In this document: one piece after another, positions 1,028 to 59,833 of the stretch
Layout: the number at the start of each line of letters is the position of its first letter
How positions within the stretch are numbered: the first letter of the stretch is position 1
Source: Nocardioides marmoribigeumensis
GTDB taxonomy: Bacteria; Actinomycetota; Actinomycetes; Propionibacteriales; Nocardioidaceae
Direction of reading: 5' to 3'
Assembly: GCF_031458325.1 (NCBI RefSeq)
Contig: NZ_JAVDYG010000001.1
Coordinates: 1,612,001-1,676,000, forward strand
DNA: 64,000 bases
Program-made: the position numbers and the translations under genes
Notes under the pieces: generated by a model
Databases searched by the model: none
Told to the model about the DNA's origin: nothing
Seen by the model: only the letters and a program-made list of their open reading frames with translations

Positions 1028-1582
1028 CTAGGGTGCCTGGGAGGCGGCGAGCGCGCGGGCGATCACCGTGACCGCCTCGTCGATCTCGGCGGCGACTCTG
1101 GCGTAGACCTCCGCCGGCTGCCCCATCGGGTCCTCGGTGTCGAGATCGAGGCCAGCGACCTCCCCCCGCCTGGCAGCGGCGTCGGCAACCAGAGCGGCTG
1201 CAGAACCTGCGGTGCGCCCGTCGACCAGCGCAGCGAGCTCGCGCCAGGTGAACGTACGCCGAAGCGCGCCCGGCGCCTCCTCCAAGGCAGTACGCCGGAC
1301 CGCGGTCGTCGCGGTGAGCACCAGGTCCGCGGCCCGCACCATGCTCTCGTCGAGCCGTCGCGCCACGAAGCCATGCGCCGACCCGCCACGCTCGCCGAGC
1401 TGGACCAGAGACTCGTCCGTCATCGCGTGGCCGACGAGGGCACGGGTGCCGGCCGAGGCGACGGAGAAGCATTGGGAGGCGGCCCCGAACTCCGCAAGCC
1501 GGAGCTGGAGGAGCCGCTCCGCCACGGGTGATCGGCAGACGTTGCCGATGCAGACGGAGAGCAGACGGAATGGTTCAGCCAC
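1028..1582 (-). CDS. Low molecular weight protein-tyrosine phosphatase (Wzb-like)
   Basis: A 184-residue cytoplasmic phosphatase. The P-loop C-X5-R motif (CIGNVCRSP) sits near residue 11, and a DP-containing acid loop (TEDPMGQ) lies near residue 150, as in LMW-PTPs. Such enzymes dephosphorylate tyrosine-rich tails of BY-kinases that control polysaccharide chain length; the likely partner is the kinase at 26417-27943, about 25 kb away on the same strand. Start is GTG at 1582; the P-loop position rules out a much later start. The ribosome site is weak. It is 22 bases from the cupin gene and 23 bases after the DUF4012 gene, so probably one transcript. Slightly longer than the usual 150-165 residues. 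Confidence 0.88.
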   Translation of the reverse strand: MAEPFRLLSVCIGNVCRSPVAERLLQLRLAEFGAASQCFSVASAGTRALVGHAMTDESLVQLGERGGSAHGFVARRLDESMVRAADLVLTATTAVRRTALEEAPGALRRTFTWRELAALVDGRTAGSAAALVADAAARRGEVAGLDLDTEDPMGQPAEVYARVAAEIDEAVTVIARALAASQAP

Positions 1583-5320: not shown

Positions 5321-6235
5321 ATGACCGACACCCACAGCGACTACCGGCTGAGCCAGCTCGACGAGCTGGAGGCTGAGTCGATCCACATCTTCCGCGAGGT
5401 CGCGGCCGAGTTCGAGAAGCCGGTGCTGATGTTCTCTGGCGGCAAGGACTCCATCGTGATGATGCGGCTGGCGGAGAAGGCCTTCTACCCGGCCAAGATC
5501 CCGTTCCCGGTCCTCCAGGTGGACACCGGCTACGACTTCCCCGAGGTCCTCCAGACCCGGGACAACTGGTGCGGCCGGCTCGGGGTGAAGTTGATCGTGG
5601 CCAGCGTCGAGCAGGCCATCAAGGACGGGATCGTCGTCGACGACGGCAAGACCCCGCGCAACCGCCTCCAGATCGGCACCCTGCTCAACGCCCTCGAAGA
5701 GGGCCAGTTCACCGCTGCCTTCGGTGGTGGCCGCCGCGACGAGGAGAAGGCGCGGGCCAAGGAGCGCGTCTACTCCCACCGTGACGAGTTCGGCCAGTGG
5801 GACCCCAAGAACCAGCGCCCCGAGCTGTGGTCGCTCTACAACGGCCGGCTGCACGAGGGCGAGCACATGCGCGTCTTCCCGCTGTCCAACTGGACCGAGC
5901 TCGACATCTGGACCTACATCGGCCGCGAGGAGATCGAGATCCCCTCGATCTACTTCAGCCACCAGCGTCGCGTCTTCGAGCGCGACGGCATGCTGCTCAG
6001 CGAGTCGGAGTACAACCCGCTCAGGAAGGGCGAGGAGGTCAGCGAGCGCCAGGTCCGATTCCGCACGGTCGGGGACCTGACCCTCACCGGCTGCCTCGAG
6101 TCGGACGCCGACACGATCGAGAAGATCATCGAAGAGGTCGCCATCGCCCGCGTGACGGAGCGCGGCGCCACTCGCGGCGACGACCGATTCTCGGAGTCCG
6201 CCATGGAGGACCGCAAGAAGGAGGGGTACTTCTGA
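5321..6235 (+). CDS. cysD: Sulfate adenylyltransferase subunit 2
   Basis: A 304-residue ATP sulfurylase small subunit. It adenylates sulfate to APS together with the CysN GTPase. Seen: the PP-loop SGGKDSIVMM near residues 39-48, DTGYDFPEV near residue 68, and the CysD signatures RRDEEKARAKER and FPLSNWTELDIW. Length and C-terminus (MEDRKKEGYF) are normal for the family. ATG start at 5321, preceded by a weak GAAGGA. The stop overlaps the cysN start by one base (TGATG), so the two are coupled. No APS kinase or PAPS reductase gene follows. Confidence 0.97.
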   Translation: MTDTHSDYRLSQLDELEAESIHIFREVAAEFEKPVLMFSGGKDSIVMMRLAEKAFYPAKIPFPVLQVDTGYDFPEVLQTRDNWCGRLGVKLIVASVEQAIKDGIVVDDGKTPRNRLQIGTLLNALEEGQFTAAFGGGRRDEEKARAKERVYSHRDEFGQWDPKNQRPELWSLYNGRLHEGEHMRVFPLSNWTELDIWTYIGREEIEIPSIYFSHQRRVFERDGMLLSESEYNPLRKGEEVSERQVRFRTVGDLTLTGCLESDADTIEKIIEEVAIARVTERGATRGDDRFSESAMEDRKKEGYF

Positions 6236-7515
6236 TGTCGGAGACCACCGAGGTCATGAAGCAGATGGACCTGCTGCGGTTCGCCACCGCCGGGTCCGTC
6301 GACGACGGCAAGTCCACCCTGATCGGGCGACTGCTGCTCGACTCCAAGTCGATCTTCGAGGACCAGCTCGAGGCGGTCCACGCGACCAGCCAGTCGCGCG
6401 GCTACGACTACGACGACCTGTCGCTGTTCACCGACGGCTTGCGGTCCGAGCGCGAGCAGGGCATCACCATCGACGTGGCCTACCGCTACTTCGCGACGCC
6501 CGCGCGCAAGTTCATCATCGCCGACACCCCCGGGCACGTGCAGTACACCCGCAACATGGTCACCGGCGCCTCGACGGCCGACCTTGGCCTCGTGCTCGTC
6601 GACGCCCGCAACGGGATGACCGAGCAGTCACGCCGCCACGCGGTGATCCTGTCGCTGCTCCGGGTGCCCCACCTTGTGCTCGCGGTCAACAAGATGGACC
6701 TCGTCGACTACAGCGAGGAGGTCTACGAGAAGATCCACGCCGAGTTCACGCAGTTCGCCACCAAGCTGTCGATCCCTGACCTCGAGGTCATCCCCATCTC
6801 GGCGCTCAAGGGCGACAACGTGGTGACCCGCAGCGAGCACATGCCGTGGTACTCGGGCCCCACGCTCATGCACCACCTCGAGCACGTCCACGTCGCCTCC
6901 GACCGGGACATGATCGACACCCGCTTCCCGGTGCAGTACGTCATTCGCCCCAAGTCCGACGCCCACCACGACTACCGCGGGTATGCCGGTCGCGTTGCCG
7001 GCGGCGTGATGAAGGTTGGCGACGAGGTGCTCGTGCTGCCCTCAGGCATGACCAGCAAGATCAAGGGCATCGACCTCTTCGACAAGGAGATCTACGAGGC
7101 CTACCCGCCGATGTCGGTCACCGTCCGACTTGAGGACGACGTCGACGTCTCGCGCGGCGACATGATCTGCCGAGTCAAGAACGCTCCGAAGGTCAGCCAG
7201 GACATTGACGCGATGATTTGCTGGATGGTCCCTGATCCCATGCGCATCCGTCAGAAGCTCGCGATCAAGCACACGACGCGCGCCGGGCGTGCCTTGGTCA
7301 AGGACATCCAGTACCGACTCGACGTCAACACGTTGCACCGAGACCAGGAGACCAAGGAGCTCGGGCTCAACGAGATCGGCCGCGTCCAACTGCGCACTAC
7401 GGTTCCGCTGCTATGCGATCCCTACAGCAAGAACAGGACGACGGGCTCCTTCATCCTCATTGATGAAGCGTCTGGAGTGACCGTAGGCGCGGGCATGATA
7501 AACGCCACGGATTGA
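6235..7515 (+). CDS. cysN: Sulfate adenylyltransferase subunit 1 (GTPase)
   Basis: A 426-residue EF-Tu-like GTPase subunit of ATP sulfurylase; GTP hydrolysis drives APS formation by CysD. Seen: G1 loop GSVDDGKSTLIG near residues 19-30, G3 DTPGHVQYTRNM near residue 97, G4 NKMDL near residue 152, then the two beta-barrel domains. There is no C-terminal APS-kinase (CysC) fusion, so PAPS supply would need another gene. The start is fixed by the TGATG overlap with cysD. The last third (from about 7150) uses noticeably more A/T at third positions than the first part, which suggests a recombination boundary running into the low-GC region that follows. Confidence 0.96.
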   Translation: MSETTEVMKQMDLLRFATAGSVDDGKSTLIGRLLLDSKSIFEDQLEAVHATSQSRGYDYDDLSLFTDGLRSEREQGITIDVAYRYFATPARKFIIADTPGHVQYTRNMVTGASTADLGLVLVDARNGMTEQSRRHAVILSLLRVPHLVLAVNKMDLVDYSEEVYEKIHAEFTQFATKLSIPDLEVIPISALKGDNVVTRSEHMPWYSGPTLMHHLEHVHVASDRDMIDTRFPVQYVIRPKSDAHHDYRGYAGRVAGGVMKVGDEVLVLPSGMTSKIKGIDLFDKEIYEAYPPMSVTVRLEDDVDVSRGDMICRVKNAPKVSQDIDAMICWMVPDPMRIRQKLAIKHTTRAGRALVKDIQYRLDVNTLHRDQETKELGLNEIGRVQLRTTVPLLCDPYSKNRTTGSFILIDEASGVTVGAGMINATD

Positions 7516-15320: not shown

Positions 15321-17252
15321 TTAAACTCCCACAGCCGTCAGCATCAGCGGAGAGCCAGATCCGGAAAGGCGCGCCTGAACCGACGAGTCGCCCCAACGAA
15401 AATCTACTTGAACGTTCGAGATTTCCCCTACCCCCCAGCGCCCCTGATGCTCGGATGGCCCGGATACCTGCGCCCAAGTCGAACGTTCCCAGCGCCCGTA
15501 AGTTGGACTACGCCACCCGAGCCATGGTGATTCCTCACCACGGTGACAGACCAAGTCGGTGAGTCCGAAGAACTCTTCGACTGACGCATCAGGCCCTAAC
15601 GGCAGGGTCATCGTCCAGCCGCCCCGAGCCTCTTCCACGGCGTCTACTACCGTGACCCCGCCCGGTCCCGCGAGCACGACACGAGCAACACGACCGTGTT
15701 CGGTTTGAAAGGCGTTGTGTACCGACAGCACAGCGACACAGTCATCAACCCGCCCAGCACTAGATGCGGCGCTTCGCACCGAACGTAACCACCTGAAGGC
15801 GCGATGCGGGAGCAACTGATCGCCACCCAACGGTACGCGAACCGTGTGGGCAGCGGACGTCCGGAAGCCGTTGCGGATGTGGAGAGGTCCGTTGTAGGTG
15901 CCCGTGCCAGGGTCCTCGAGGAGCCACCGCTCACCGTCGCGGATCCACACCGATGAAAGGTCTGCATGCTGATGACTGGGGCCACCACCGATCTTGAACC
16001 AGAGACGCCGCGCCCCCGCGTCGAGGCGGACGAAGTACCCAGCTTGCACGCATCCCTCATCCAAGCTCGGCAGGGGTCGGTGCCCACGTTCCGGGCCGAG
16101 GTACCACGCTAGCTCGTCGTACTCGTCGGCTGTCGAAAGTGGCACGTCGAACCCACTGAGTGCCAGCGAGGCCCAAGCGCTACCCGCTGTGCTACCCGCG
16201 GGGCCTGAATCAACAAGGATCCGCCCCTCGTCCCAGTCGCCGAACTGGGGAACGGGTCCGTCGAGAACGCCAAGCCGCAACAGGCCTATTCCGGCAGCCT
16301 CCATCGCACACCGTAACTCATCCGGCGCACCTCCCAATAGGTAGCGCACTATAAGCATCTCAAGCACGAATCGGTGATACGAGAGCGAGTCTTCAATCAT
16401 GAAACCGTCGGGTCGCATGTGTCGGCGCAACTGCATCAACATCAGTCGGTCGCCAATCTTGCGCCAATTCTTGCCGCGCTCAGGAAACATCAACCCAAGC
16501 ACCACCAGACCCAGCCCGTCGCCGAGAAGGTGGTTGTTTTTCATGCTGCTAAACGTGTACGGCAGTTCCACCAAGATGTGGCGGGCACTAGCCATCAATT
16601 GATGGTCCATGCGAGCACGGAGATCAGGATGAAGTCGGTCCCCAACCAAAGCAATCACTTGCGCCCAAGCGACCGCACGTAGCGCCAGCTCAAGGCTCGA
16701 ATACCAATGAATGCCTCGCTCGGGACGGCACTCCCGTACCCAGCGCTCCACCATCAACACCATGTGGTCGAACCACGGTCCCACCGGATCCAGCACGGAC
16801 GCGCGAGCGAGCACTACAAGGTCGCGATGGCGTCCAGCTTCCCAAACGTACTTGACGTCGGACAGTCGAGCTTCGGAGCGGATGTCAATCTGCCACCACG
16901 GCGTGGTCTCGGGCCACACCTCGCCTGTCAGCGGGTCGGTTCCCCATTCAGCGCGTGCACCCGTCGGTACCCGGCGTCCGAATACTCGCGTTCCTTGATT
17001 CACAACTTGGCGGGCGTCGTCCAAGCAGCGCGTGCGGGCGGCGACTCCCTCCGGTACCTGGTCTCCCAGCGACAGCACCACGCTGGTCGGTACCGATGCG
17101 GGATCTATCTCACGGAAAAGCAGCCGGTGGAAATTGCTTCGCTTTGATGCCTCGTAGGCGGCGCGCAGTGGTGCCGAATATCCCAAAGCCCGCAGGTCGC
17201 CCATCATGCGAGCCACCCGCGCACACATCGAACCGCTTGGCGAACCTGTCAT
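15321..17252 (-). CDS. Heparinase II/III family polysaccharide lyase-like protein
   Basis: A 643-residue protein with an alpha/alpha-toroid N-terminal half and a beta-sandwich C-terminal half, as in heparinase II/III and alginate-lyase-like enzymes. Seen: NNHLLGDG at residues 239-246, SYHRF at 291-295, and HQHADLSS at 427-434, the expected Asn, Tyr/His and His positions. These enzymes cleave uronic-acid glycosidic bonds by beta-elimination; the preceding wecC gene makes the matching uronic acid, UDP-ManNAcA. No signal peptide was seen, so export or a cytoplasmic or nascent-chain role is open. The ATG at 17252 follows GGGAGGAG; upstream extension to 17411 overlaps wecC and is rejected. Confidence 0.85.
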   Translation of the reverse strand: MTGSPSGSMCARVARMMGDLRALGYSAPLRAAYEASKRSNFHRLLFREIDPASVPTSVVLSLGDQVPEGVAARTRCLDDARQVVNQGTRVFGRRVPTGARAEWGTDPLTGEVWPETTPWWQIDIRSEARLSDVKYVWEAGRHRDLVVLARASVLDPVGPWFDHMVLMVERWVRECRPERGIHWYSSLELALRAVAWAQVIALVGDRLHPDLRARMDHQLMASARHILVELPYTFSSMKNNHLLGDGLGLVVLGLMFPERGKNWRKIGDRLMLMQLRRHMRPDGFMIEDSLSYHRFVLEMLIVRYLLGGAPDELRCAMEAAGIGLLRLGVLDGPVPQFGDWDEGRILVDSGPAGSTAGSAWASLALSGFDVPLSTADEYDELAWYLGPERGHRPLPSLDEGCVQAGYFVRLDAGARRLWFKIGGGPSHQHADLSSVWIRDGERWLLEDPGTGTYNGPLHIRNGFRTSAAHTVRVPLGGDQLLPHRAFRWLRSVRSAASSAGRVDDCVAVLSVHNAFQTEHGRVARVVLAGPGGVTVVDAVEEARGGWTMTLPLGPDASVEEFFGLTDLVCHRGEESPWLGWRSPTYGRWERSTWAQVSGPSEHQGRWGVGEISNVQVDFRWGDSSVQARLSGSGSPLMLTAVGV

Positions 17253-20313: not shown

Positions 20314-21443
20314 GTGCTCAGGACCTTGCGCTGGATGACCTCGACCACGCCGTCGAACTGGTCGTCGGTCATGCCCGAACCGGACGGGAGCGTGATGCCC
20401 GTGGCGAAGAGACGATCCGCGGCCCCGGACAGGGTGCTGGCGTGGTCCGCAAACAGCGGCTGCAGGTGCATCGGCTTCCAGACAGGTCGGGACTCGATGC
20501 CGGCGTCAGTGAGCACAGAGGCAAGGTCTGACGCGCTCCAGGGTGACTGCTCAGGGTCAACCGTGAGGGCCGTGAGCCAGCAGTTGTCCTGCACGTCGTC
20601 CGTCCCCCCTAGGATCTCCACGCCCTCAGCTCCAGCGAAGAGCTGACGGTATTGGTCGCGCCACCCGCGTCGGCGCGCGATCATCGCGTCGAGTCTGCTC
20701 AGCTGCGCGCGACCGAGGGCTGCGAGCAGATTGGAGAGCCGGTAGTTGAAGCCGAGCTCCGCGTGCTCGTAGTGCACTGCAGGCTCGCGTGCCTGAGTCG
20801 CCATCTTGCGCACATGAGCGGCCAGGGCTGCGTCGTCGGTGAGGAGCATGCCGCCACCGGAGGTTGTCATCACCTTGTTGCCGTTGAACGACACGACGGC
20901 GACATCGCCGTGAGCGCCCGCGGGCACGTCTGCGTGGCTTGCCCCCAGGGACTCAGCAGCGTCGCTCAGCAAGCGCGCGCCGTGACGGTCACACACCTCC
21001 TGGAGACGGGTGTAGTCCGCTGCTTTGCCCAGCATGTCGACAGCGACCACGACCGGCACGCGCGAACCCTGCGATGCGAGGTCGTCGAGCGCCTGATCCA
21101 GCAGGTGGGGGTCAAGATTGCCCGTGGACATCTCGCAGTCCACGAAGTAGGGGGTCGCCCCGGTGTAGATGACAGCATTCGCCGTGGCGACGAAGGTGAA
21201 CGTCGGGACGACCACCACGTCACCCGGCCCAACTCCCCATGAACGGAGGACGAGGTGGAGGCCCGCAGTCCCAGAGGCGAGGCCGACGGCGTAGCCCACT
21301 CCGACCCGCTCCGCCATTTCCTGCTCGAACGAGTCCAGATCAGGACCGGCGGGCGCAGCCCAGCCGGACCTCAGGGCACGGACGAGATACTCCTCCTCGA
21401 GCGCCCCGACATCGGGTGCGGACAGGTAGACATCGAAACTCAA
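20310..21443 (-). CDS. DegT/DnrJ/EryC1-family sugar aminotransferase
   Basis: A 377-residue PLP-dependent aminotransferase acting on nucleotide 4-keto (or 3-keto) sugars. Seen: N-terminal YLSAPDVGALEEEYLVRALR with SGW, PTFTFVATANAVIY near residue 85, and SFNGNKVMTTSGGG near residue 185 with the PLP lysine. The start is set at TTG 21443, where TTGA overlaps the stop of the dehydratase gene by 4 bases; upstream extension would have poor sequence. Following a PglF-like dehydratase and preceding a PglC-like transferase, it most likely acts as PglE, giving a UDP-4-amino-4,6-dideoxy-GlcNAc-type sugar. Confidence 0.9.
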   Translation of the reverse strand: MSFDVYLSAPDVGALEEEYLVRALRSGWAAPAGPDLDSFEQEMAERVGVGYAVGLASGTAGLHLVLRSWGVGPGDVVVVPTFTFVATANAVIYTGATPYFVDCEMSTGNLDPHLLDQALDDLASQGSRVPVVVAVDMLGKAADYTRLQEVCDRHGARLLSDAAESLGASHADVPAGAHGDVAVVSFNGNKVMTTSGGGMLLTDDAALAAHVRKMATQAREPAVHYEHAELGFNYRLSNLLAALGRAQLSRLDAMIARRRGWRDQYRQLFAGAEGVEILGGTDDVQDNCWLTALTVDPEQSPWSASDLASVLTDAGIESRPVWKPMHLQPLFADHASTLSGAADRLFATGITLPSGSGMTDDQFDGVVEVIQRKVLST

Positions 21444-23335
21444 GCTCCGGCACCCACCGACTGACTGGCAGGCGACGCCGCCCGCTGACCCGGGATGCGC
21501 ACGCTCAGGCTCGTTGCGTGCTTGCGGAACTCCGCGATGACCTCGCGCTTGGACGCCCACGGGTCGAGCTCACGCGCGATCGTCGGAGCGAACGCCGGGA
21601 CGGGTGTGTGAGACACCAGCGGGTGGGCGGGGCGAAGGTCGGGCTCCCCGTCGCCCCACAGCTCCTCGTGCATCTTCTCGCCCTCACGGAGGCCGGTGTA
21701 GACGACCTCGACGTCCTTGCCGGACAGGTCGATGAGCTGGCGGGCGACGCCATCGATCGAGACCGGCTCCCCCATGTCGAGCACGAGGGCTTCGCCGTCG
21801 CGACCGATCGCGGCGGCCTGGATGACGAGCTGGACGGCTTCCTGCACGGTCATGAAGTAGCGCGTGACCGACGGGTCGGTCACCGTCACGGGGCCACCGT
21901 TGGCGATCTGCGCCGCGAAGGCTGTCAGCACGGAGCCGCGGCTGCCGAGCACGTTGCCGAAGCGGACCGAAAGGTAGGTGCCGTCGGCCTGCGGAGCGAT
22001 CGCAGCCGTGAGGCCTTCGGCGAGGCGCTTGGAGTAGCCGAGCACGCTGCACGGGTTGGCGGCCTTGTCGGTGGAGATGTTGACGAACCGCTCGACCCCG
22101 TGGGCCTTGGCCGCCTCGAGGATGCTCAGGGTGCCCCAGACGTTGGTCTTGATGGCCTCGCCCGGGTATTGCTCCAGCATCGGAAGGTGCTTGAGCGCGG
22201 CCGCGTGGAACACTACGTGCGGCTTGCGCTGCTCGAACAGCGTGTCGATGAAGAGCGAGTCGCGGATGTCGGCGAGCACGACGTCGTCGGAGTCGAGCAT
22301 CGCCTTGCCATAGATGGAGAGCTGCACCGCGTGCAGGGCCGACTCGTCGCGGTCGAGCATGATCAGCTCGTCGGGGCCGAACTTCGCGATCTGACGGCAG
22401 AGCTCCGAACCGATTGAGCCTCCGGCGCCCGTGACCAGCACGCGCTTGCCGGTGAGGTAGCCGGCGACGGCCTCGATGTCGGTGTCGATCTGGTGCCGAC
22501 CGAGCAGGTCGGTCACCTCGATGTCGCGGATGTCGCTGATCTCGACGCGCCCGGCGTTCATCAGCTCGGCAGTCGCGGGGAGGACCTTGACGGCGACGCC
22601 GGCCTCCAGGCCGAGGTCCTGGAGCTCACGCACCAGGTCGGCCCGGGCACTGGGGATCGCGATCACGAGCGCATCGGCTTCGTGGCGACGGGCCGTGTCG
22701 GCGAGGGCCTCACGTCCACCGAGGACGCGCACGCCGCGGATGCGACGGTGGCGCAGGCTCTGGTCGTCGTCGAGGAGCGCGACCGGGCGCCAGGCCGCGG
22801 CCGGATCGCGCAGCATCGAGGTGATGAGCTGGCGGCCGGCGTTGCCGGCGCCGAAGACGATCACGCGTCGCGCGCCCGCGTCGACCGCACCGCGAGCCGG
22901 ACGGAAGTCGAGGTCGGCGGCGCTGCGGTAGAAGCCGCGCACCCAGCACATCATCAGCAACGCCAGGATCGTTGCGACCGGGGGCACCGTGCCGGGCACC
23001 AGACGGTGGCCGATCAGGTTGGCGACCGTCAATGCTCCGCCCACGGTGGTGGCGACGAGGCTCAGGACCATCAGCTCCTCGAGGGCGCCGATCTGGTAGC
23101 GGCCCTGCTGGAGCTTGAACGTCGACCCCAGTGCCAGATGGCCGCAGGTGGCGACCACCGCGAAGAAGACGAGCATTCCCCAAGGCGCCATCGTCGCGGC
23201 ACTCGAGAGCGAAGCCCCCTCGAGGACGTAGCGAATGAATCCGTAGGTGAGAAAAGCGATGGTCCAGAGCACTCCGTCGATGGCGAAGAGCACTGTGGCC
23301 CGCCGGCGCCTGAGAGCGGCGACCATGTGCGACAT
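21440..23335 (-). CDS. Membrane-bound UDP-sugar 4,6-dehydratase (PglF/WbpM/CapD family)
   Basis: A 631-residue protein with four N-terminal transmembrane helices (about residues 15-140), a CoA-binding-like Rossmann domain (VIVFGAGNAGRQLI near 163) and a C-terminal SDR domain (VTGAGGSIGSELCRQ near 295). Active region: ISTDKAANPCSVLGYSKRLAE near 420-440. The canonical Tyr of YxxxK is a Leu here (LGYSK); in many large dehydratases it is Met. The family makes UDP-4-keto-6-deoxy-GlcNAc or related sugars, first step to QuiNAc or bacillosamine. The ATG at 23335 is preceded by GGGGGGAA; an upstream ATG at 23404 is less likely. Confidence 0.9.
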   Translation of the reverse strand: MSHMVAALRRRRATVLFAIDGVLWTIAFLTYGFIRYVLEGASLSSAATMAPWGMLVFFAVVATCGHLALGSTFKLQQGRYQIGALEELMVLSLVATTVGGALTVANLIGHRLVPGTVPPVATILALLMMCWVRGFYRSAADLDFRPARGAVDAGARRVIVFGAGNAGRQLITSMLRDPAAAWRPVALLDDDQSLRHRRIRGVRVLGGREALADTARRHEADALVIAIPSARADLVRELQDLGLEAGVAVKVLPATAELMNAGRVEISDIRDIEVTDLLGRHQIDTDIEAVAGYLTGKRVLVTGAGGSIGSELCRQIAKFGPDELIMLDRDESALHAVQLSIYGKAMLDSDDVVLADIRDSLFIDTLFEQRKPHVVFHAAALKHLPMLEQYPGEAIKTNVWGTLSILEAAKAHGVERFVNISTDKAANPCSVLGYSKRLAEGLTAAIAPQADGTYLSVRFGNVLGSRGSVLTAFAAQIANGGPVTVTDPSVTRYFMTVQEAVQLVIQAAAIGRDGEALVLDMGEPVSIDGVARQLIDLSGKDVEVVYTGLREGEKMHEELWGDGEPDLRPAHPLVSHTPVPAFAPTIARELDPWASKREVIAEFRKHATSLSVRIPGQRAASPASQSVGAGA

Positions 23336-23343
23336 GTGAAGTT

Positions 23344-23349
23344 CCCCCC
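23344..23349 (-). promoter_or_regulatory. G6 leader before the dehydratase gene
   Basis: Minus-strand CACGGGGGGAACTTCAC followed by ATG at 23335. It closely resembles the run before the glycosyltransferase at 45038 (ACGGGGGTACTTGCGAC). It may be an atypical ribosome site or part of a shared control element. Confidence 0.35.
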
Positions 23350-23407
23350 GTGATGGGAATCGCCGCGCCCCCCGGCGTGACGACCTTTCAACGATAAAGG
23401 ACATTCG

Positions 23408-23487: not shown

Positions 23488-24444
23488 TCAGTCGCCCGTT
23501 CGGCCAGCGCGATGTGGACCGGATTGGTGCCAATGGTCCCGGACGAGCAGGACCGCCCTCGGGAGAGCCCTGAGCCCGGTCCACCACCGGTCGACCCACA
23601 TGCCAATCAGGCCCAGCCGTCCGGGGCGAGCCGCCGGATAGCGCGTCCTCAGCTCGCCCTCGGTCAGCCACAGCGCTCGCCACAGCAGGGCGGGCCAGCA
23701 GCGCAGCGGCGTCCGCCGGAACGTGACCAGCCAGCCGACGGTGTGCTCCGCGCCGAGGTCTCGGACAAGGTCCCAGGCGGTACTAGCTTCCTGGTCGGCT
23801 GACGCGGCTCGAGACGATGTCACCCCTAAACGCATCAGCGAAGACCTTAGCGGCCCAGCCGCCCCGGTCGCGTCGGCGATCACGGCCAGTTGCTGGCGCT
23901 CGGGCGTGGTCAGCGCAGCGCTGAGGTGGGCCAGGAGACCCTCGAGCTCTGCGACGCGGCGCTCACCTCCCCGCAGCAGGTGGAGGAGCCCCACGGCGGC
24001 GGCTGCGGGCCGCGACGGGACCCGCACTGGCTGGCCGGCGACCTTCATCGTGGCGCGCTCCCGCCACAACGCGTCGAAGACCACCTCCGGCGGGGCGAGG
24101 AACCCGGGGAAGTAGTGGTGAACGTCGATCTCCTGCGGCCAGGCGGGGTGCGACATCGACACCGAGTGGGGCGGGATCACGTGCCCACCGGTGGCAGAGA
24201 CGGCCGGGGGTGACCACCCGGCGCCTGCGAGCACCTCGAGCAGGTCGTCGAACCGTCCGGGTTCGACGAGCACGTCGACGTCCAGCGACTGGCGCGGAGG
24301 CCTCAGACCCAGCTCCTCCAGGGTCGGCCCCTTGATGGCCAGCGCGCGGATGTCGTGGTCAGCAGCCAGACGCGCGACGAGGGCATACCCAAGGGGTACG
24401 CCCTCGTCGAGGTCGAGGCGGTCTGCGCCAGGAGACGCGGACAA
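23488..24444 (-). CDS. Nucleotidyltransferase-fold protein (NTP_transf_5-like)
   Basis: A 318-residue protein of the uncharacterised nucleotidyltransferase family. Seen: AIKGPTLEELGL near residue 37 and SLDVDVLVEPGRFDDLLEVL near 53-72; the D-x-D pair and the preceding KG motif fit the Pol-beta-like active site. The rest is helical with a positively charged tail. The start is TTG at 24444, directly after the stop of the Tat-exported protein gene (TGATTG), so coupled. Homologues occur beside HprK-like kinases and PqqD-like proteins in some lasso-peptide and exosortase/exopolysaccharide loci, matching this cassette. Substrate unknown. Confidence 0.75.
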   Translation of the reverse strand: MSASPGADRLDLDEGVPLGYALVARLAADHDIRALAIKGPTLEELGLRPPRQSLDVDVLVEPGRFDDLLEVLAGAGWSPPAVSATGGHVIPPHSVSMSHPAWPQEIDVHHYFPGFLAPPEVVFDALWRERATMKVAGQPVRVPSRPAAAAVGLLHLLRGGERRVAELEGLLAHLSAALTTPERQQLAVIADATGAAGPLRSSLMRLGVTSSRAASADQEASTAWDLVRDLGAEHTVGWLVTFRRTPLRCWPALLWRALWLTEGELRTRYPAARPGRLGLIGMWVDRWWTGLRALPRAVLLVRDHWHQSGPHRAGRTGD

Positions 24445-24969
24445 TCAGCTGGACGTGGTCGAGCCGGAGGTCGCCGAGGCGTTGGGCGAGGAGGCGACGT
24501 AGGTGTAGGCGCCGGTCGGGCAGGACTGCGTGGGGATCGACAGCATGAAGCCGAGCGCACCGGTCGACTGGTTGGGCTTGAGCGCACCCGTTCGCGACAC
24601 GAAGGTGTAGCTGTCGCCGCTCTTGCCGGCGTAGGTCCAGTTGTTCTGCACGCCCTTGTCGTAGGGCTGGGCCATGGTCGTGCCCGAGCCTGCCGGAGCG
24701 GAGACGACCGTGGTGACCGGACCACCCGTGCTGCTCGAGCCCGTGTTCTTGATCGGGCCGACCAGGACGTGAACGCGCTTCTGCTTGGGCATGCACTGGA
24801 CCTTGAAGGCACTGCCCTGGAGCGTCGCCTGGCCCGAGACGGCCAGCGCCGGCGCTGCCGTCGCGATGGAGATGGCCGGCACCGCCCAAGCGGCGTGCGC
24901 CCCCGCGCGGACCACCGTGCGCCTGGAAATGGCGCGCTGCGCGCCTGGAGTGGTGCTACCCCGAGTCAT
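24445..24969 (-). CDS. Tat-exported small protein of unknown function
   Basis: A 174-residue protein with a twin-arginine signal: SRRTVVRAGA at residues 15-24, a hydrophobic stretch, and an Ala-rich cleavage site (APALA, about residue 43). The mature part is about 130 residues, beta-strand-rich, Gly/Ser/Thr-rich, with two Cys (KVQCMPK and TQSCPTG) that might pair. No family was recognised. ATG at 24969 is preceded by GGGGGG; the frame could start at 25008 but that would spoil the signal peptide. It lies between the second PqqD-like gene and the nucleotidyltransferase-like gene and is the only obvious exported partner of the cassette, hence a candidate substrate. Confidence 0.75.
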   Translation of the reverse strand: MTRGSTTPGAQRAISRRTVVRAGAHAAWAVPAISIATAAPALAVSGQATLQGSAFKVQCMPKQKRVHVLVGPIKNTGSSSTGGPVTTVVSAPAGSGTTMAQPYDKGVQNNWTYAGKSGDSYTFVSRTGALKPNQSTGALGFMLSIPTQSCPTGAYTYVASSPNASATSGSTTSS

Positions 24970-24977
24970 CGATGAAA

Positions 24978-24983
24978 CCCCCC
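24978..24983 (-). promoter_or_regulatory. G6 leader before the Tat protein gene
   Basis: Minus-strand ATCGGGGGGTTTCATCG followed by ATG at 24969, within an 89-base gap after the PqqD-like gene. It shows the same G-run placement as other exported-protein genes in the window. Confidence 0.35.
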
Positions 24984-25058
24984 GATATAACAAATGGTGC
25001 ATGTGCACCCTACGTGACCGGTCACGGTCTTGAACAATCCCCCGAACGGATATCAGCC

Positions 25059-25358
25059 TCAGCCGGGACCTTCGGCACGGTCGTGCCGACTGAGCACCCC
25101 CTCCTGCTCGAGCTCCAGCAAGGTGCCGAGGGTCAGCTGTCCGGAGAGATCCTCACCGTCCTCGCCGGTCGCCACCCCGAACCTCTCCACCAGGATCGCG
25201 GCGAGGTCCTCCGCCGCGAGATCCGTGTCGCGCAGGGCAGTCACGAGCGTCCAGGCGAGGCTCGAGAGGGCGAGGACCCGGCCGTCGAGCAGCATCACCA
25301 CGCCCTCGTCGTCCTCGCCGAGCTCGTCGAGGAACGGTGCGCGGCCCCACGTCGTCAT
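25059..25358 (-). CDS. PqqD-like small protein (distal copy)
   Basis: A 99-residue protein resembling the PqqD fold (RiPP recognition element type). Seen: a two-strand start with GVVMLLDGRVLAL near residues 19-31, a helix SSLAWTLVTALRD near 32-44, and helices ending LEQEGVLS near residue 90. PqqD-like domains bind peptide leaders or act as adaptors for a modifying enzyme. The ATG at 25358 overlaps the kinase stop by 4 bases (ATGA). Less typical than the copy at 26130-26408, so it may have a different partner. Confidence 0.72.
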   Translation of the reverse strand: MTTWGRAPFLDELGEDDEGVVMLLDGRVLALSSLAWTLVTALRDTDLAAEDLAAILVERFGVATGEDGEDLSGQLTLGTLLELEQEGVLSRHDRAEGPG

Positions 25359-26137
25359 GCTTCGACCCCCAGGTGCTCCTCGACGAGCGGGGCGAGGTGG
25401 ACCGCCTCGGCGTAGGTGACCACCTGGAGCCCGCCGACCGCGTGGACCAGGTCGGCCACCCGGGCGAGGGGCCGCTCGAGCTGGGTGAGGTAGGAGGTGT
25501 GCTCGGCGAGCAGGGCGACCGCCCGCGCCGTCGAGACGCGCTCGACCGTCGGCTCGCCCGCGCCCGGATCGCGGCGCAGCAGGACCAGGCCCGCCGGTGT
25601 GGTCCGCTCGGCGCACGGGGTGAGCCCGAGCTCGGTCGGAGCGACCTGGGTCTTGGCCGGGCCGGCGCCGATCACGGAGAGAGGCTTGGGGAACGGCGTC
25701 ACCCGCCCGTCGCCGGCGACCGAGACGCACTCGTCGGTGACGTAGGACCAGCGGCGGCCCAGGACGGTGGCGACCGTCGTCTTGCCCATGCCGGACGGGC
25801 CGACGAGGACCACCGACCTGTCGCCGCGGGCGACCGCGCAGGCGTGGAGCATCAGCCGCTGACCGGCGAGCGCCTCGATGGCGGTCACGGTGAGCGCCTG
25901 GGTGAGGTGCTCGAGGCCGGCTGCTAGGTCGTCTTGAGGTTTCGAGGCTCCGCTAGCGCCTCGCACCTCAACCTGCGAGTCGGTGCGGTCGGGCTCGATC
26001 ACGAGGTCCGGCACGGCCGCGGACGTGTCCAGAAGACAGGCCGACCAGGCTCGGCGTACCTCTGCGGCGAGCTGCTTGTCGTCGAGGGTGACCTTGGCGG
26101 TCAGACCAAGGACGTGGAGCCAGATCTCGTCAGGCAT
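25355..26137 (-). CDS. HprK-like serine kinase family protein
   Basis: A 260-residue protein related to the C-terminal kinase domain of HPr kinase/phosphorylase and to the HprK-related kinases of peptide-modification and exopolysaccharide loci. Seen: RLMLHACAVARG near residues 94-105, Walker A GPSGMGKT at 113-120, DE at 135-136, and a Gly/Pro-rich loop (PFPKPLSVIG) near 148. The HPr phosphorylation partner (PTS) is not in the window. It overlaps both flanking PqqD-like genes (8 and 4 bases), which strongly suggests a complex. Residues about 56-68 are encoded by a dispersed repeat (25938-25973). Target unknown; the Tat protein is one candidate. Confidence 0.8.
   Translation of the reverse strand: MPDEIWLHVLGLTAKVTLDDKQLAAEVRRAWSACLLDTSAAVPDLVIEPDRTDSQVEVRGASGASKPQDDLAAGLEHLTQALTVTAIEALAGQRLMLHACAVARGDRSVVLVGPSGMGKTTVATVLGRRWSYVTDECVSVAGDGRVTPFPKPLSVIGAGPAKTQVAPTELGLTPCAERTTPAGLVLLRRDPGAGEPTVERVSTARAVALLAEHTSYLTQLERPLARVADLVHAVGGLQVVTYAEAVHLAPLVEEHLGVEA
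25938..25973 (-). repeat. Dispersed repeat inside the HprK-like coding region
   Basis: Minus-strand GGTTGAGGTGCGAGGCGCTAGCGGAGCCTCGAAACC, with a GAGGC/GCCTC stem. It looks like the REP-type repeats usually found between genes in related actinobacteria, yet here it is translated in frame (VEVRGASGASKP). Confidence 0.5.
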
Positions 26138-26408
26138 CCGTCACCCCCTCGATGAGGCCGCGGGAGGCCAGGTCCTCGAGGAACGCATGGACCGACGGAC
26201 CGATGACGGCTTCCTCCTCTGCGTAGAGGTCGACCAGCTCAGCGACGATCGCGGTGTGGTCGCGCACGCCGTCGATGCGCTGCCAGATCTCCGCGGCCGA
26301 CCCCTCGAGCACGAAGGGCGGGTGGTCGAGGTGGTCGAGGTCGAGCAGGGCCGAACGGCCCTCGCGGTCGACGTACGCCACCGACGCGCCTCGGCGCCAC
26401 ACCGTCAT
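26130..26408 (-). CDS. PqqD-family protein (proximal copy)
   Basis: A 92-residue PqqD-family protein. Seen: N-terminal beta strands (SVAYVDREGRSALLDL), then SAAEIWQRIDGVRDHTAIVA at about residues 37-56, a very typical PqqD helix with the 'DG' turn, and FLEDLASRGLIEG at the C-terminus. ATG start at 26408 lies 8 bases after the tyrosine-kinase stop and its stop region overlaps the HprK-like start. Two PqqD-like genes flanking one HprK-like gene suggests two adaptor or recognition subunits. No lasso cyclase, radical-SAM or PQQ genes are nearby, so a classical RiPP or PQQ role is not supported. Confidence 0.82.
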   Translation of the reverse strand: MTVWRRGASVAYVDREGRSALLDLDHLDHPPFVLEGSAAEIWQRIDGVRDHTAIVAELVDLYAEEEAVIGPSVHAFLEDLASRGLIEGVTDA

Positions 26409-26416
26409 GACCCTGG

Positions 26417-27943
26417 TCAGGAGTCGCCGGGACCGTCGCCGTCGGCCTCGCGGTCCTTGGCGAGCGCCTCGAGCTTCGCGCGCTCGGCCCTGGGGGTCGA
26501 GCTGCGCCGGAACAGCGAGCGCCAGCCGGACCTCTGGGTGAGCGACCGGCGCGAGGTGTAGTCGTCGGAGTAGTAGCCGTAGTAGCCGCCGTAGGCCCCG
26601 GCGCCCCTGCGGGGCACCTTGTTCATGATCACCCCGAGTGCGCGGCCCCGCACGGCCGTGAGGTGGTTGAGCGCCGTGTTGAGCTCGGCGTCGACCGTGC
26701 GCCCGGCGGAGATGACGACGAGGGCTCCGTCGGCGTTTGCGGTCAGCAGGGCGGCGTCGGTGACCGGGAGGAGCGGCGGGGCGTCGAGGATGACGAGGTA
26801 CTTCTCCCCGAGCTCCGCCACCAGTGAGCGCATCGCGTTGGAGCCGAGCAGCTCGCTCGGGTTGGGCGGGATGCGGCCGGCGGCCATCACCCGCATGTGC
26901 TCGCGGCCCGACACCTCCTGCAGGGCGTCGATCGCGTCGACCCGGCCGGTGAGCACGTCGGTGAGGCCGACCCCCTCGACCAGTCCGAGCGAGTCCGCGA
27001 CGGAGGGACGACGCAGGTCGGCATCGATCAGCACCACGCTCTGACCACCGGCCGCGACGGCGGCGGCGAGGTTGGCCGACACGGTCGACTTGCCGTCGCC
27101 GGGGCGAGGGCTCGTCACGACGATCACGCGCGGCGGGTTGTCCACGTCCATGAAGGCCAGGTTGGTCCGCAGCTTGCGGAAGGCCTCGCCCGACGCGGCG
27201 TCGTCGGAGGCCTCGGTGCGGCCCTGGAGGGCAAGCTTGGCCCGCTCCCCCTTCTTGTGCTCCAGCAGGTCCGAGACCGGCACCATGCCGACGACACTGA
27301 CCGGGAAGCGCTGCTCGACCAGGTCGGCGGTCCGCAGCCGGCGGTCGAGCACGTTGCGCACCATCGCGTAGCCGAAGCCGAGCATGAGGCCGAGGACGAG
27401 GGCGAGCGCGAGGTTGCGCTCCGGGCGCGGAGAGACCGGTCGGGTCGGGAGCGCCGCGGACTCGACCGGGACGATGTGCGGCACCTTGTTGGCGTTCTTG
27501 TTCTGCGGGTCCTCGATCGACTGCACCTGCTCCGCGAGCGCGGCGACCCAGGCGTTGGCGAGTTCCTGCGCGTCCTTCGGGCTCCCGGCCCGTGCGGTGA
27601 TCTTCAGGAGCACGGTGTCTGGCGGCTGCACCACGTCGATGCGCCCGACCAGTCCGGCCGGGTCCTGGTCGAGGTTGAGGAGACGGTTGACCTCCTGCGC
27701 CGTCGCGCGGGACTTGGCGATGTCGACGTACGACGTCGCGCGGCTCTTGGCGAGCTGGTCGTTGAGCGAGCCCAGGGCCGGGTTCTCGCTGCCCCCGATG
27801 GCGACGAACCCGCTGGCGTCCGCGGCATAGACCGGGACCCGCGTGAAGGTGTAGGCCGAGGCTGCGCCGATGGTGAGGATCGTGATGAGGAGGACCCCGA
27901 GCCAATGGGCGCGCAGGATCCTCAGGTAGTCGCGAAGCTCCAC
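26417..27943 (-). CDS. Chain-length determinant/tyrosine autokinase (Wzc-like, BY-kinase)
   Basis: A 508-residue fusion of a Wzz domain and a cytoplasmic BY-kinase. Seen: transmembrane helices at about 14-34 and 178-196 enclosing the external Wzz loop, Walker A PRPGDGKST near 279-287, Walker A' VVLIDADLRRPSV at 303-315, Walker B YLVILDAPP at 382-390, and a tyrosine cluster at residues 451-462 (six Tyr). Autophosphorylation of this cluster normally regulates polymer length and export; the LMW phosphatase at 1028-1582 would reverse it. First gene of the main operon, ATG at 27943. The chain-length role is by analogy. Confidence 0.95.
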   Translation of the reverse strand: MELRDYLRILRAHWLGVLLITILTIGAASAYTFTRVPVYAADASGFVAIGGSENPALGSLNDQLAKSRATSYVDIAKSRATAQEVNRLLNLDQDPAGLVGRIDVVQPPDTVLLKITARAGSPKDAQELANAWVAALAEQVQSIEDPQNKNANKVPHIVPVESAALPTRPVSPRPERNLALALVLGLMLGFGYAMVRNVLDRRLRTADLVEQRFPVSVVGMVPVSDLLEHKKGERAKLALQGRTEASDDAASGEAFRKLRTNLAFMDVDNPPRVIVVTSPRPGDGKSTVSANLAAAVAAGGQSVVLIDADLRRPSVADSLGLVEGVGLTDVLTGRVDAIDALQEVSGREHMRVMAAGRIPPNPSELLGSNAMRSLVAELGEKYLVILDAPPLLPVTDAALLTANADGALVVISAGRTVDAELNTALNHLTAVRGRALGVIMNKVPRRGAGAYGGYYGYYSDDYTSRRSLTQRSGWRSLFRRSSTPRAERAKLEALAKDREADGDGPGDS

Positions 27944-33242: not shown

Positions 33243-34634
33243 ATGACCCCTGCGCCCAACGTCGTCGTGATCCTCGCCGGCGGCGTCGGCCAGCGCATGG
33301 GGCTCGAGGTCCCCAAGCAGCTGCTCAAGGTCGCCGGGCGGACGATCCTCGAGCACACCGTCGCCGCCTTCGAGGCGCACCCGGCCGTCGACGAGATCCT
33401 GCTCGCGATGGCCGAGGGTCACCTCGACTCCGCGCGGCAGATCGTCAAGGCGGGCGGCTACGGCAAGGTCGTCGACATCATCGAGGGCGGCGCCACCCGC
33501 ACCGAGACCACCTCCAAGGCGCTGGCCGCGATCCGGCACCAGGACGGCAACGTGCTGTTCCATGACGCGGTCCGCCCGCTGGTCACCGCCCGGATCATCA
33601 CCGACTGCTTCGAGGCCCTCGCGACCCACGCGGCCGTCGACGTCGCCATCCCCTCCGCCGACACGATCATCGAGGTCGACGACGACCAGACGATCCGCGA
33701 CATCCCCCCGCGCGCCCGTCTCCGTCGCGGGCAGACCCCGCAGGGCTTCCGGCTGCCGGTCATCCGCGCGGCGTACGACGTGGCGCTGCGCGACCCCGAC
33801 CTCCAGGCGACCGACGACTGCACGATCGTGATGCGCTACAGCCCCGGCACGCCGGTGTACGTCGTCCCCGGCGACGAGCGCAACCTGAAGGTCACCGAGC
33901 CGATCGACCTCGTGCTGGCCGACAAGCTGTTCCAGCTCAGCGCCCAGGACCAGCCGCCGCTGCTCGGCGACGCGGCGTACGCCGAGGCGCTCACCGGCAG
34001 GGTGATGGTCGTCTTCGGCGGCTCCTACGGCATCGGGCAGACGATCGGCGACCTCGCCACGTCGTACGGCGCCCACGTGCGGGCCTTCAGCCGCTCGATC
34101 ACCCGCACCCACGTCGAGCGGCGCGACGAGGTCCGAGCGGCGATCGCGGAGGTGCTCGCCGAGCACGGGCGGATCGACTACGTCGTCAACGCCGCCGCGG
34201 TGCTGCCCCGCGGTGACCTGGTCGACGCCACCGACGAGCTGGTCCACAGCTCGACCGATGTGAACTACCTCGGCCCGATCTTCGTCGCCCAGGAGTCCTT
34301 CGAGGCACTGGCCGAGACCGAGGGGTCCCTCCTGCTGTTCACCTCCAGCTCCTACACCCGCGGGCGGGCCGGCTACGCGCTCTACTCCTCCGCCAAGGCC
34401 GCGGTCGTCAACCTCACCCAGGCGCTGGCCGACGAGTGGAGCGGCGCCGGGGTGCGGGTCAACTGCATCAACCCCGAGCGGACGGCGACGCCGATGCGCA
34501 AGAAGGCGTTCGGCGACGAGCCGCCCGGCACGCTGCTCGAGGCCGAGGACGTGGCGCGCTCGTCGCTGACCGTGCTGATCTCGCGCGACACCGGGCACAT
34601 CATCGACCTGCGGCGCGAGACGCCGTTCGAGTGA
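33243..34634 (+). CDS. Bifunctional ribitol-5-phosphate cytidylyltransferase/ribulose-5-phosphate reductase (Bcs1-like)
   Basis: A 463-residue fusion. Residues 1-235 are an IspD/TarI-type cytidylyltransferase (VVILAGGVGQRMG at 7-19, Lys in PKQLLK, HDAVRPLV near 107). Residues about 250-463 are an SDR reductase (VVFGGSYGIGQTIGDLA near 258, YSSAK as YxxxK near 382). Together they would make CDP-ribitol from ribulose-5-P and CTP, as Bcs1/Acs1 do in Haemophilus capsules. Partner of the CDP-glycerol/ribitol phosphotransferase at 36145. ATG at 33243 with no good ribosome site; a TATACAT about 7 bases upstream may mean a leaderless transcript. Confidence 0.85.
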   Translation: MTPAPNVVVILAGGVGQRMGLEVPKQLLKVAGRTILEHTVAAFEAHPAVDEILLAMAEGHLDSARQIVKAGGYGKVVDIIEGGATRTETTSKALAAIRHQDGNVLFHDAVRPLVTARIITDCFEALATHAAVDVAIPSADTIIEVDDDQTIRDIPPRARLRRGQTPQGFRLPVIRAAYDVALRDPDLQATDDCTIVMRYSPGTPVYVVPGDERNLKVTEPIDLVLADKLFQLSAQDQPPLLGDAAYAEALTGRVMVVFGGSYGIGQTIGDLATSYGAHVRAFSRSITRTHVERRDEVRAAIAEVLAEHGRIDYVVNAAAVLPRGDLVDATDELVHSSTDVNYLGPIFVAQESFEALAETEGSLLLFTSSSYTRGRAGYALYSSAKAAVVNLTQALADEWSGAGVRVNCINPERTATPMRKKAFGDEPPGTLLEAEDVARSSLTVLISRDTGHIIDLRRETPFE

Positions 34635-57716: not shown

Positions 57717-58606
57717 GCCGTCACCTGACCAGCCTCACCGAGGCCGACGTCGCTGCCGTGCGCGCGGTGGTCGACGCCGCCGAGCACGCCGACCACGTGC
57801 GCCCCGTCGACGAGGCCGTCGAGCTGCTGCTGGCCCGGGGGCTCGGGTCCGGCGCCGCCCTGTGGCTCGACGAGGGCGGGTTCGCCCTGGTCCGGCCCGG
57901 CGAGCCGCGCGAGCTCGACCTCGTCGTACGCCCCGACGCGCGGCGGGCCGGCCTCGGCGCGGCACTGGCGCGGGAGGTCCTGGACGACGGGCCCTGGGCC
58001 GCCTGGTCGCATGGCGACCACCCCGGGGCGCGCGCCCTCGCGGCCCGGCTCGGCTTCCGGGCCGAGCGCTCGCTCTGGGTGATGCGGCTCCCCGGCGACG
58101 TCTCCCTCCCGCAGGCGCCCTCCGAGGGTCCGACGCTGCGTGCCTTCCGTCCCGGTGAGGACGACGACGAGCTGCTGCGGGTCAACCGCGAGGCCTTCGC
58201 CCACCACCCCGAGCAGGCCGGGCTCGACCCGGCGGGGCTCGAGGAGCGCATGGGGCAGCCGTGGTTCGACCCCGCGGGCCTGCTGGTGGCCGATGCCGGC
58301 GGGGGCCACCTGGTCGGCTTCCACTGGACCAAGGTGCACGAGGCCTCCGACGACGCGCCCCGGCACGGCGAGGTCTACGTCATCGGCGTCGACCCGTCCG
58401 CCCAGGGTGGCGGCCTCGGGCGGCGCCTGCTCGTCGCGGGGCTCGCTCACCTGCGCTCGGTCCTCGGCGACGACGCGGAGGTCGTGCTCTACGTCGAGTC
58501 GGACAACGACCCGGCGGTCGCGATGTACGCGAAGTTCGGGTTCGCCCACGCCGCCCGGGACACGCACGTGCAGTATCGGCGGGGTCCAGTTTTACTAGGT
58601 ACCTAG
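57713..58606 (+). CDS. mshD: Mycothiol synthase (GNAT family)
   Basis: A 297-residue protein with two GNAT domains, catalysing the last step of mycothiol synthesis, acetylation of Cys-GlcN-Ins. Seen: [19 protein letters not shown] near residues 67-85 (first domain acetyl-CoA loop), [17 protein letters not shown] near 157-173, [21 protein letters not shown] near 219-239 (second domain), and [16 protein letters not shown] near 262-277. GTG 57713 overlaps the glnR stop. The last residues (GPVLLGT) and TAG come from the palindromic element. Confidence 0.93.
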
Positions 58607-58671: not shown

Positions 58672-58677
58672 AACCGA

Positions 58678-59772: not shown

Positions 59773-59833
59773 GGCGGAACCGTAGCGAGAACGAGTTCAC
59801 CCCTGGTTCACCGCCGGGTGGGACGATGACCAC

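Follow-up and report, generated by a model that had tools for sequence, protein, structure and literature searches.

A gene module in a Nocardioides marmoribigeumensis polysaccharide locus whose Tat export signal may double as a RiPP-type leader

The DNA examined here, a stretch of 64,000 nucleotides of Nocardioides marmoribigeumensis (hereafter the window; assembly GCF_031458325.1, contig NZ_JAVDYG010000001.1, positions 1,612,001 to 1,676,000), carries six adjacent genes for a Wzc-type kinase, a PqqD-like protein (PqqD1), an HprK-like kinase, a second PqqD-like protein (PqqD2), a protein with a twin-arginine translocation (Tat) signal and an NTP_transf_5 nucleotidyltransferase (NT5; Table 1). 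All six are read from the minus strand, each with a single stop codon at its end, and the junctions from Wzc to NT5 consist of an 8-base gap, an 8-base overlap, a 4-base overlap, an 89-base gap and no gap. This agrees with a first-pass annotation of the same DNA, which had described six genes in one direction with 4-8 base overlaps or near-zero gaps and 89 bases before the Tat gene. It had also suggested that the PqqD-like pair may present the Tat protein to the kinase, within a modification system tied to exopolysaccharide export.

Table 1. Features of the module and its surroundings (positions within the window).
Feature	Position	Strand	Basis or remark
Wzz/Wzc-type polysaccharide co-polymerase, tyrosine autokinase domain and Tyr-rich tail	26417..27943	-	TIGR01007 152 bits vs cut-off 108; Wzz PF02706
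PqqD1, PqqD/RRE-type leader-binding protein	26130..26408	-	PF05402 46.4 bits vs cut-off 23.4
HprK-like kinase with His98, GxGKTT, Asp135-Glu136	25355..26137	-	TIGR04352 E 2.4e-10, below cut-off; invariant residues
PqqD2, divergent PqqD/RRE-type domain	25059..25358	-	alignment with kinase-fused PqqD domain of relatives
Tat-exported protein, proposed substrate	24445..24969	-	profile A5 1.8e-20 (window sequence is 1 of 14 profile rows)
Twin-arginine pair of the Tat signal, residues 16-17	24919..24924	-	sequence reading
WAVPAI, a WxxPx[VI] motif; W-16, P-13, I-11 counted from the AxA site	24871..24888	-	sequence; family geometry
Ser at +2 of the predicted mature Tat protein (residue 45), proposed acceptor	24835..24837	-	cleavage site assigned by pattern
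NTP_transf_5 nucleotidyltransferase (NT5)	23488..24444	-	PF14907 44.2 bits, 2.3e-11 vs cut-off 31.2
FlaA1/CapD-type nucleotide-sugar dehydratase, next gene of polysaccharide operon	21440..23404	-	PF02719 2e-99
Low-molecular-weight phosphotyrosine phosphatase (PF01451)	1028..1582	-	about 24 kb from module
Heparinase II/III-like protein (PF07940) in polysaccharide operon	15321..17207	-	

Wzc, PqqD1 and NT5 score above the curated cut-offs of their families, and the Tat protein matched no Pfam or NCBIfam family. The Tat gene may also start at in-frame GTG or ATG codons up to 25008. Across six NT5 sequences, Lys38-Gly39, Ser53, Asp55xAsp57, His93 and His99 are invariant. The genome contains one HprK of the module kind (two further matches are weak), a single PF05402 match at E 1e-3, which is PqqD1, and a single match to the Tat-signal profile A5 described below. 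A promoter and terminator scan of the locus gave nothing useful.

The kinase profile A2 was searched in 294 genomes of the same family and 393 of the class, two samples that overlap. In total 69 loci were read, picked from the stronger matches with a few genomes giving two or three, and the counts below refer to the 68 whose kinase scored 150 or more. Our analysis revealed that the six genes form a recurrent module. A PqqD domain lies within 4 kb of the HprK-like kinase in 67/68 loci (in 23/68 within the kinase frame itself), a Wzc-type kinase within 4 kb in 51/68 and within 9 kb in 56/68, and NT5 within 9 kb in 50/68. A Tat gene within 4 kb was found by pattern in 16 of the 68; the gene at L085 proved to be a false positive and is uncounted, L029 had been missed, and the number is again 16. 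L029 belongs to a genome of the same genus (G002) and keeps the identical order Wzc-PqqD1-HprK-PqqD2-Tat-NT5-FlaA1, so the arrangement appears to be more than chance; the first-pass annotation had suggested searching genomes for this ordered set beside Wzc genes. Within the genus the distribution is patchy: among five genomes the kinase was detected at 1e-6 in G000 and G002 and not in G001, G003 and G004. Distant actinobacteria carry PqqD, HprK and Tat sets with no match to the Wzc or NT5 profile in the stretch read (e.g. L158, L160 and L164), and therefore the core seems to consist of the kinase, PqqD and the Tat protein, with NT5 and Wzc as frequent partners. Separately, the kinase matches at G289:C10, G284:C1 and G150:C1 each hold one in-frame TGA, possibly reflecting two adjacent genes or a frameshift.

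Judged by its sequence, the window kinase is only a distant relative of HprK. It reaches 40 bits against TIGR04352 (cut-off 200), short of the HPr-rel-A kinase threshold, and 12.3 of the 33.3 bits of PF07475, the bona fide HPr kinase/phosphorylase (HPrK/P) family (E 0.13). Nevertheless, the His, the Walker Lys and the Asp-Glu pair are retained in 66/68 kinases (65 by script, L101 by eye), so that a general loss of catalytic residues across relatives, which the first-pass annotation had named as an argument against its proposal, was not observed. L119 (G082) and L142 (G287) are additional kinase copies with degenerate active sites. PqqD1 scores 20.2 of 35 bits against TIGR04353, below the cut-off. 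PqqD2 had no PqqD match in Pfam or NCBIfam and none to TIGR04353; it is labelled PqqD-like because it aligns with the domain fused at the kinase C-terminus in relatives, and it probably adopts the fold of a recognition element (RRE) of ribosomally synthesized and post-translationally modified peptides (RiPPs), since the model of a fused homologue resembles the RRE TbiB1. That homologue, in which kinase and PqqD2 are naturally fused, comes from Pseudarthrobacter chlorophenolicus (L022), whose locus also encodes PqqD1, Wzc, NT5 and a Tat protein; its model was of fair quality (predicted local distance difference test, pLDDT, 71). In structure searches its kinase part resembled PEPCK best (E 1.4e-4), followed by HPrK/P (3e-4), and its C-terminal part resembled TbiB1 bound to a lasso leader (5v1v; TMt 0.70, E 7.9e-3) and PqqD (TMt 0.66). 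For the window kinase alone PEPCK ranked top and HPrK/P lower, with low TM-scores. When the kinase profile was searched against PDB sequences, the best 60 of 241 were P-loop matches, mostly ABC transporters, with no HPrK/P among them.

The Tat signal of the window protein is a member of a family of the form RR..WxxPx[VI]..AxA, with x[ST] following the cleavage site, and this family tracks the kinase across genomes. Profile A5, made from 14 signal regions of genes near the module, was run on whole genomes, and in a first test on 40 genomes (E 1e-3) it matched 20/20 module-positive genomes, 14 of them used for building, and 0/20 negative ones. Among the 294 same-family genomes, HprK exceeded 100 bits in 70, the Tat profile matched in 74 (E<=1e-5) and both were present in 68; the Tat family thus occurs in 68/70 genomes with a strong kinase vs 6/224 without. 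With the 14 profile-building genomes removed, the counts are 54 with both, 2 with the kinase only, 6 with Tat only and 218 with neither (Fisher 2.9e-48, uncorrected for shared ancestry, a value that overstates independence because the genomes are related). The kinase occurs without Tat in G110 and G150, and Tat without a strong kinase in G026, G120, G128, G182, G210 and G273; among these, G026 and G210 do show HprK matches of lower score.

The association extends to the class sample of 393, where HprK was detected at 1e-6 in 47 genomes and 23 of the 25 Tat-positive ones are HprK-positive. The exceptions are G120 and G351, the latter with a PqqD gene adjoining the Tat gene at a contig end. For 14 class Tat-positives outside the family of the window, the Tat gene lies within 1.5 kb of an HprK match in 11 (coordinates compared by eye); nine of these HprK matches are weak (under 80 bits). 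A wider Tat profile of 43 rows (A10) matched 15/19 HprK-positive class genomes that A5 had missed, or 12/16 independent ones, G665, G490 and G150 having given rows, and 0/61 HprK-negative class genomes.

The signal of the window protein reads WAVPAISIATAAPALA, followed by VS after the predicted cleavage site. In 89 Tat proteins collected overall, some from 20 stretches taken from three multi-copy genomes, and with cleavage sites assigned by pattern, W is found at -16 from the AxA site in 84/89, W-16, P-13 and [VIL]-11 occur jointly in 80/89, and Ser or Thr is at +2 in 73/89 (63 Ser, 10 Thr). The distance from RR to W is 7, 10 or 13 residues, in steps of three, in 83/89, and that from W to the cleavage site is nearly fixed. 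A search for generic Tat signals gave 18 matches in 9/14 genomes, some of them poor, of which 17 were parsed; [WY]xxP was seen in 0/17 and Ser or Thr at +2 in 1/15 with an assignable site. A first crude control for Ser at +2 (5/66) was dropped, as many of its sequences were not signal peptides.

The family is multi-copy in some genomes, with 22 copies in G227, 14 in G065, 13 in G072 and 12 in G289, scattered over the genome with some small groups. Among 76 Tat proteins scanned at E 0.01, the Pfam and NCBIfam families detected in the mature parts each matched three proteins at most. The mature parts include DUF5122 and RCC1 beta-propellers, Big_1, DUF11, CBM_2 and a few LPXTG anchors (up to 3); one protein matches TIGR01409, and no PEP-CTERM sorting domain was among the families listed. 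Among those read, the proposed substrates are as long as 550 residues. A brief stretch of N-terminal similarity attached to otherwise unrelated proteins is the pattern that sorting signals show. A C-terminal Ser acceptor as in paeninodin was considered and ruled out, since the Tat proteins show no conservation at their C-termini.

It might be argued that WxxPx[VI] is simply a Tat or signal-peptidase feature of one exported family and that its agreement with an RRE motif is convergence. The motif does lie in the h-region, a place where hydrophobic residues and helix breakers would be expected, and the positives in the family of the window are confined to 6/25 genera. However, the motif family is absent from the HprK-negative genomes of both comparisons (0/61 of the class and 0/20 of the same family), and generic Tat signals are present in 6/9 of the own-family negatives searched for them, a search that did not cover the 61 class genomes. 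In addition, a variable RR-to-W spacing with a nearly fixed distance from W to cleavage argues against it, and we consider convergence very unlikely.

We find it reasonably probable that the locus encodes a protein-modification module in which the Tat export signal also serves as a RiPP-type leader. The substrate would be synthesized with a Tat signal that has WxxPx[VI] within its hydrophobic part; this motif would be bound in the cytoplasm by a PqqD/RRE protein, as happens with the motifs of lasso B1 and LppB; and the HprK-like kinase, linked to PqqD2, would phosphorylate the +2 Ser or Thr just past the cleavage site. NT5 may then add a nucleotidyl or sugar group to the phosphate, in the manner of the PsmN hexose. 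The Tat system would export the folded, tagged protein, signal peptidase would remove the leader and expose a modified N-terminus outside, and the tag may couple the protein to surface polysaccharide, a last step proposed because Wzc is a frequent neighbour and low-molecular-weight phosphotyrosine phosphatases and glycosyltransferases are found in some loci. The earlier suggestion of a PqqD pair that brings the Tat protein to the kinase thus gains support from the co-occurrence and from the RRE-type motif in the signal, with binding itself a prediction. New relative to the first-pass annotation are a substrate that forms a multi-copy family, an acceptor probably beside the cleavage site and the sets lacking Wzc and NT5.

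The closest described system makes the linear polyphosphorylated peptides (LPP; lppABKNSD). It is reported to comprise an RRE, an HprK-like kinase, an NTP transferase, a SipW-like peptidase and an MsbA-like exporter, and to be confined to Bacillota, where it is often located within loci for capsular polysaccharide (Popov et al., 2026; PMC13381572). According to the same text, lasso-type PqqD/RREs bind [Y/W]xxPx[L/V/I/F/A]; the LppA leader residues concerned are Y-16, P-13 and V-11, with Y-16A and P-13A weakening the complex; and LppK places one to four phosphates on core Ser3 and refuses Thr or Tyr there. The biological role of LPP is given as unknown (PMC13381572). Our module likewise combines a discrete RRE, an HprK-like kinase and an NTP transferase (from PF05402, the HprK-like alignment and PF14907), with a polysaccharide-rich context, a Ser near the cleavage site and signal-peptidase-type cleavage, and W-16/P-13/[VI]-11 of the Tat signals matches the spacing of Y-16/P-13/V-11 in LppA. 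This agreement in motif, spacing and enzyme set played no part in finding the Tat family. On the other hand, the full LPP leader YxxPxVLxHQxIxFETxxS is not seen, the window signal sharing only [Y/W]xxPx[V/I] and the spacing. LPP precursors, as far as described there, have 35-200 residues and are encoded in the cluster, whereas the proposed Tat substrates can reach 550 residues among those read and are often located elsewhere in the genome, and an actinobacterial module with a Tat signal as leader differs from the Bacillota systems. The dedicated SipW-like peptidase and MsbA-like exporter of LPP also lack counterparts among the six genes, which hold no peptidase or ABC exporter. The SipW-like family TIGR02228 was found in the genome only at 1803355 and 2096837, outside the window (1612001-1676000) and about 166 kb away at the nearest, and no MsbA-like exporter was detected among the six genes or the 28 window proteins scanned with Pfam.

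In lasso peptide tailoring, PadeK and ThcoK phosphorylate a precursor Ser via a His-Lys-Asp-Asp site and PsmN adds hexoses to the phosphate, according to two reports (PMC9266682, PMC8498205). The PqqD-like B1, the His-Lys-Asp HprK-like kinase and the nucleotidyltransferase of those systems (PadeK, ThcoK, PsmK, PsmN, B1) are mirrored here, but there is no B2 protease near the module, the substrates are protein-sized and no C-terminal Ser acceptor is seen. A lasso cluster reading is ruled out by the distribution of the B2 leader protease PF13471, which has 0 matches in the own genome and is found in 7/57 module genomes, at about 47 kb from a strong module kinase on one contig at the nearest (G294); the regular linkage to lasso genes that would have spoken against the first-pass proposal is therefore not observed. 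In G164, 0.4 kb separates PF13471 from a further HprK-like match, a weak one (C1, about 1004150-1005018), which makes a separate lasso-type cluster likely. Matches of PF13471 beside PF05402 were also noted at G031:C19 (about 82464-86041) and G131:C17 (about 58397-60981), and the loci in all three genomes are probably separate lasso-type clusters in module genomes.

Alternatively, PqqD, HprK and NT5 might make an unseen small RiPP of LPP or lasso type, with the Tat protein a co-inherited surface protein instead of the substrate. In lasso and LPP clusters these three are known to form the tailoring set, and small precursor genes are easily missed, the gene caller having a floor of 45 residues and no dedicated search for small conserved open reading frames having been made. 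The scarcity and distance of PF13471 weigh against this explanation, as does the distance of TIGR02228, whose nearest match on the same contig in 17 module genomes searched is 41 kb away (G131). Furthermore, the Tat family tracks the kinase even when its copies sit elsewhere in the genome, and it carries the RRE motif itself. We thus believe that a small RiPP is an unlikely explanation.

With respect to polysaccharide, the module lies in a cluster encoding a FlaA1/CapD dehydratase, a DegT aminotransferase, a Bac_transf transferase, a UDP-GlcNAc 2-epimerase, a UDP-glucose dehydrogenase and a low-molecular-weight phosphotyrosine phosphatase, together with Wzy_C, glycosyltransferases, a Polysacc_synt_3 protein and a heparinase-like protein. 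The tie to polysaccharide genes is frequent but not essential, because PqqD, HprK and Tat sets also occur with no Wzc or NT5 match in the stretch read; the exopolysaccharide link of the first-pass annotation is in this respect partly supported. A regulatory role could also be envisaged, in which kinase and PqqD control polysaccharide assembly via Wzc or the phosphatase and the Tat protein serves as a structural component of the polysaccharide layer. Besides the frequent proximity of Wzc, 33 of the 42 loci with Wzc within 2 kb of the kinase have it on the opposite strand, nearly all divergent, and in 16/68 loci the phosphatase lies 9 kb or less from the module kinase. This role would, however, fit poorly with L158, L160 and L164, and it leaves the RRE motif in the Tat signals unexplained, so that we regard it as quite unlikely.

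Two further observations concern the surroundings. A gene pair on the plus strand of the cluster (window 5321-7515) encodes a PAPS-reductase-domain protein and an EF-Tu-type GTPase, presumably CysD/CysN, and may point to a sulfated polymer. At window 33243-34634, also on the plus strand, lies what we take to be a cytidylyltransferase fused to a short-chain dehydrogenase.

The HPr-rel-A sets (TIGR04352 kinase, TIGR04353 PqqD and a nucleotidyltransferase) follow the same gene logic, although the window proteins fall below the NCBIfam cut-offs. A search of plasmid records returned five matches, three from one Vibrio species (one read), one from Sphingomonas and one from Methylosinus. In Sphingomonas parapaucimobilis the annotated set adjoins a hypothetical protein with a Tat signal by eye (L220:10948-11433), and its kinase also has Asp-Glu, as in the window; in Vibrio alfacsensis, HprK-related kinase A and a nucleotidyltransferase adjoin another protein annotated as hypothetical, again Tat-signal by eye (L221:4878-5690). 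Unlike the actinobacterial family, both signals are without WxxP. The Methylosinus match has no annotated PqqD or nucleotidyltransferase beside it and was left uncounted. The Sphingomonas and Vibrio loci suggest a Tat link wider than actinobacteria, though two species make no rule. None of the titles listed in our literature search linked a PqqD or HprK-like kinase to a Tat signal, which is no proof of absence. The many-to-one sorting of PEP-CTERM/exosortase (PMC1569441) resembles the proposed system in its short signal on unrelated proteins, its polysaccharide link and its detectability by phylogenetic profiling; it differs in that here the signal is an N-terminal Tat signal, phosphorylation is proposed and no membrane protease is.

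Several points weigh against a Tat signal acting as leader. The acceptor is at +3 in LPP and at +2 here, 10/89 Tat members have Thr at a position where LppK, as described, rejects it, and deletion of lppN, the NTP transferase gene, caused no change in the test host (PMC13381572). The fourth catalytic residue of the kinase is Glu and not Asp, the model of the window kinase is poor (pLDDT 55), NT5 is not within 9 kb in 18/68 loci, and WxxP falls in a hydrophobic segment that has to interact with Tat and signal peptidase as well. The +2 Ser/Thr and W spacing are partly ascertained by a profile spanning those columns, and the generic Tat control is small with sites set by pattern. As to co-occurrence, four HprK-positive class genomes had no Tat match (G588, G335, G369 and G381) and seven marginal ones were outside the A10 retest. 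G120, G128, G182 and G273 carry one Tat-family protein with no strong HprK and no PF05402 match; these genes may be orphans, losses or cases of undetected divergent partners, and PF05402 also misses the PqqDs of G002, which tempers such negatives. Conversely, four kinase-negative genomes have PF05402 without the Tat family (G007 and G010; G008 and G114 marginal), and therefore PqqD alone is no predictor of it.

Modification guided by an RRE is known for peptides. If the proposal is true, the leader would here be part of an export signal that full-size proteins of many different folds carry, and it can be tested directly because the recognition motif has already been described in a related system. 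More tentatively, and with slightly more doubt than confidence, we envisage that actinobacteria have a many-to-one system for modification and sorting that acts genome-wide, in which a Tat-embedded leader motif directs PqqD-HprK(-NT5) to give a (poly)phospho- or phosphoglycosyl-Ser/Thr N-terminus before export, linked to polysaccharide, with the orphan HPr-rel-A sets of Gram-negative bacteria as a branch. The proposal would also explain the use of Tat, since modification needs cytosolic ATP and the folded product is then exported. Finally, the orphan PqqD-HprK-nucleotidyltransferase cassettes of polysaccharide loci would acquire a function, and actinobacterial surface proteins tagged after translation would constitute a new class.

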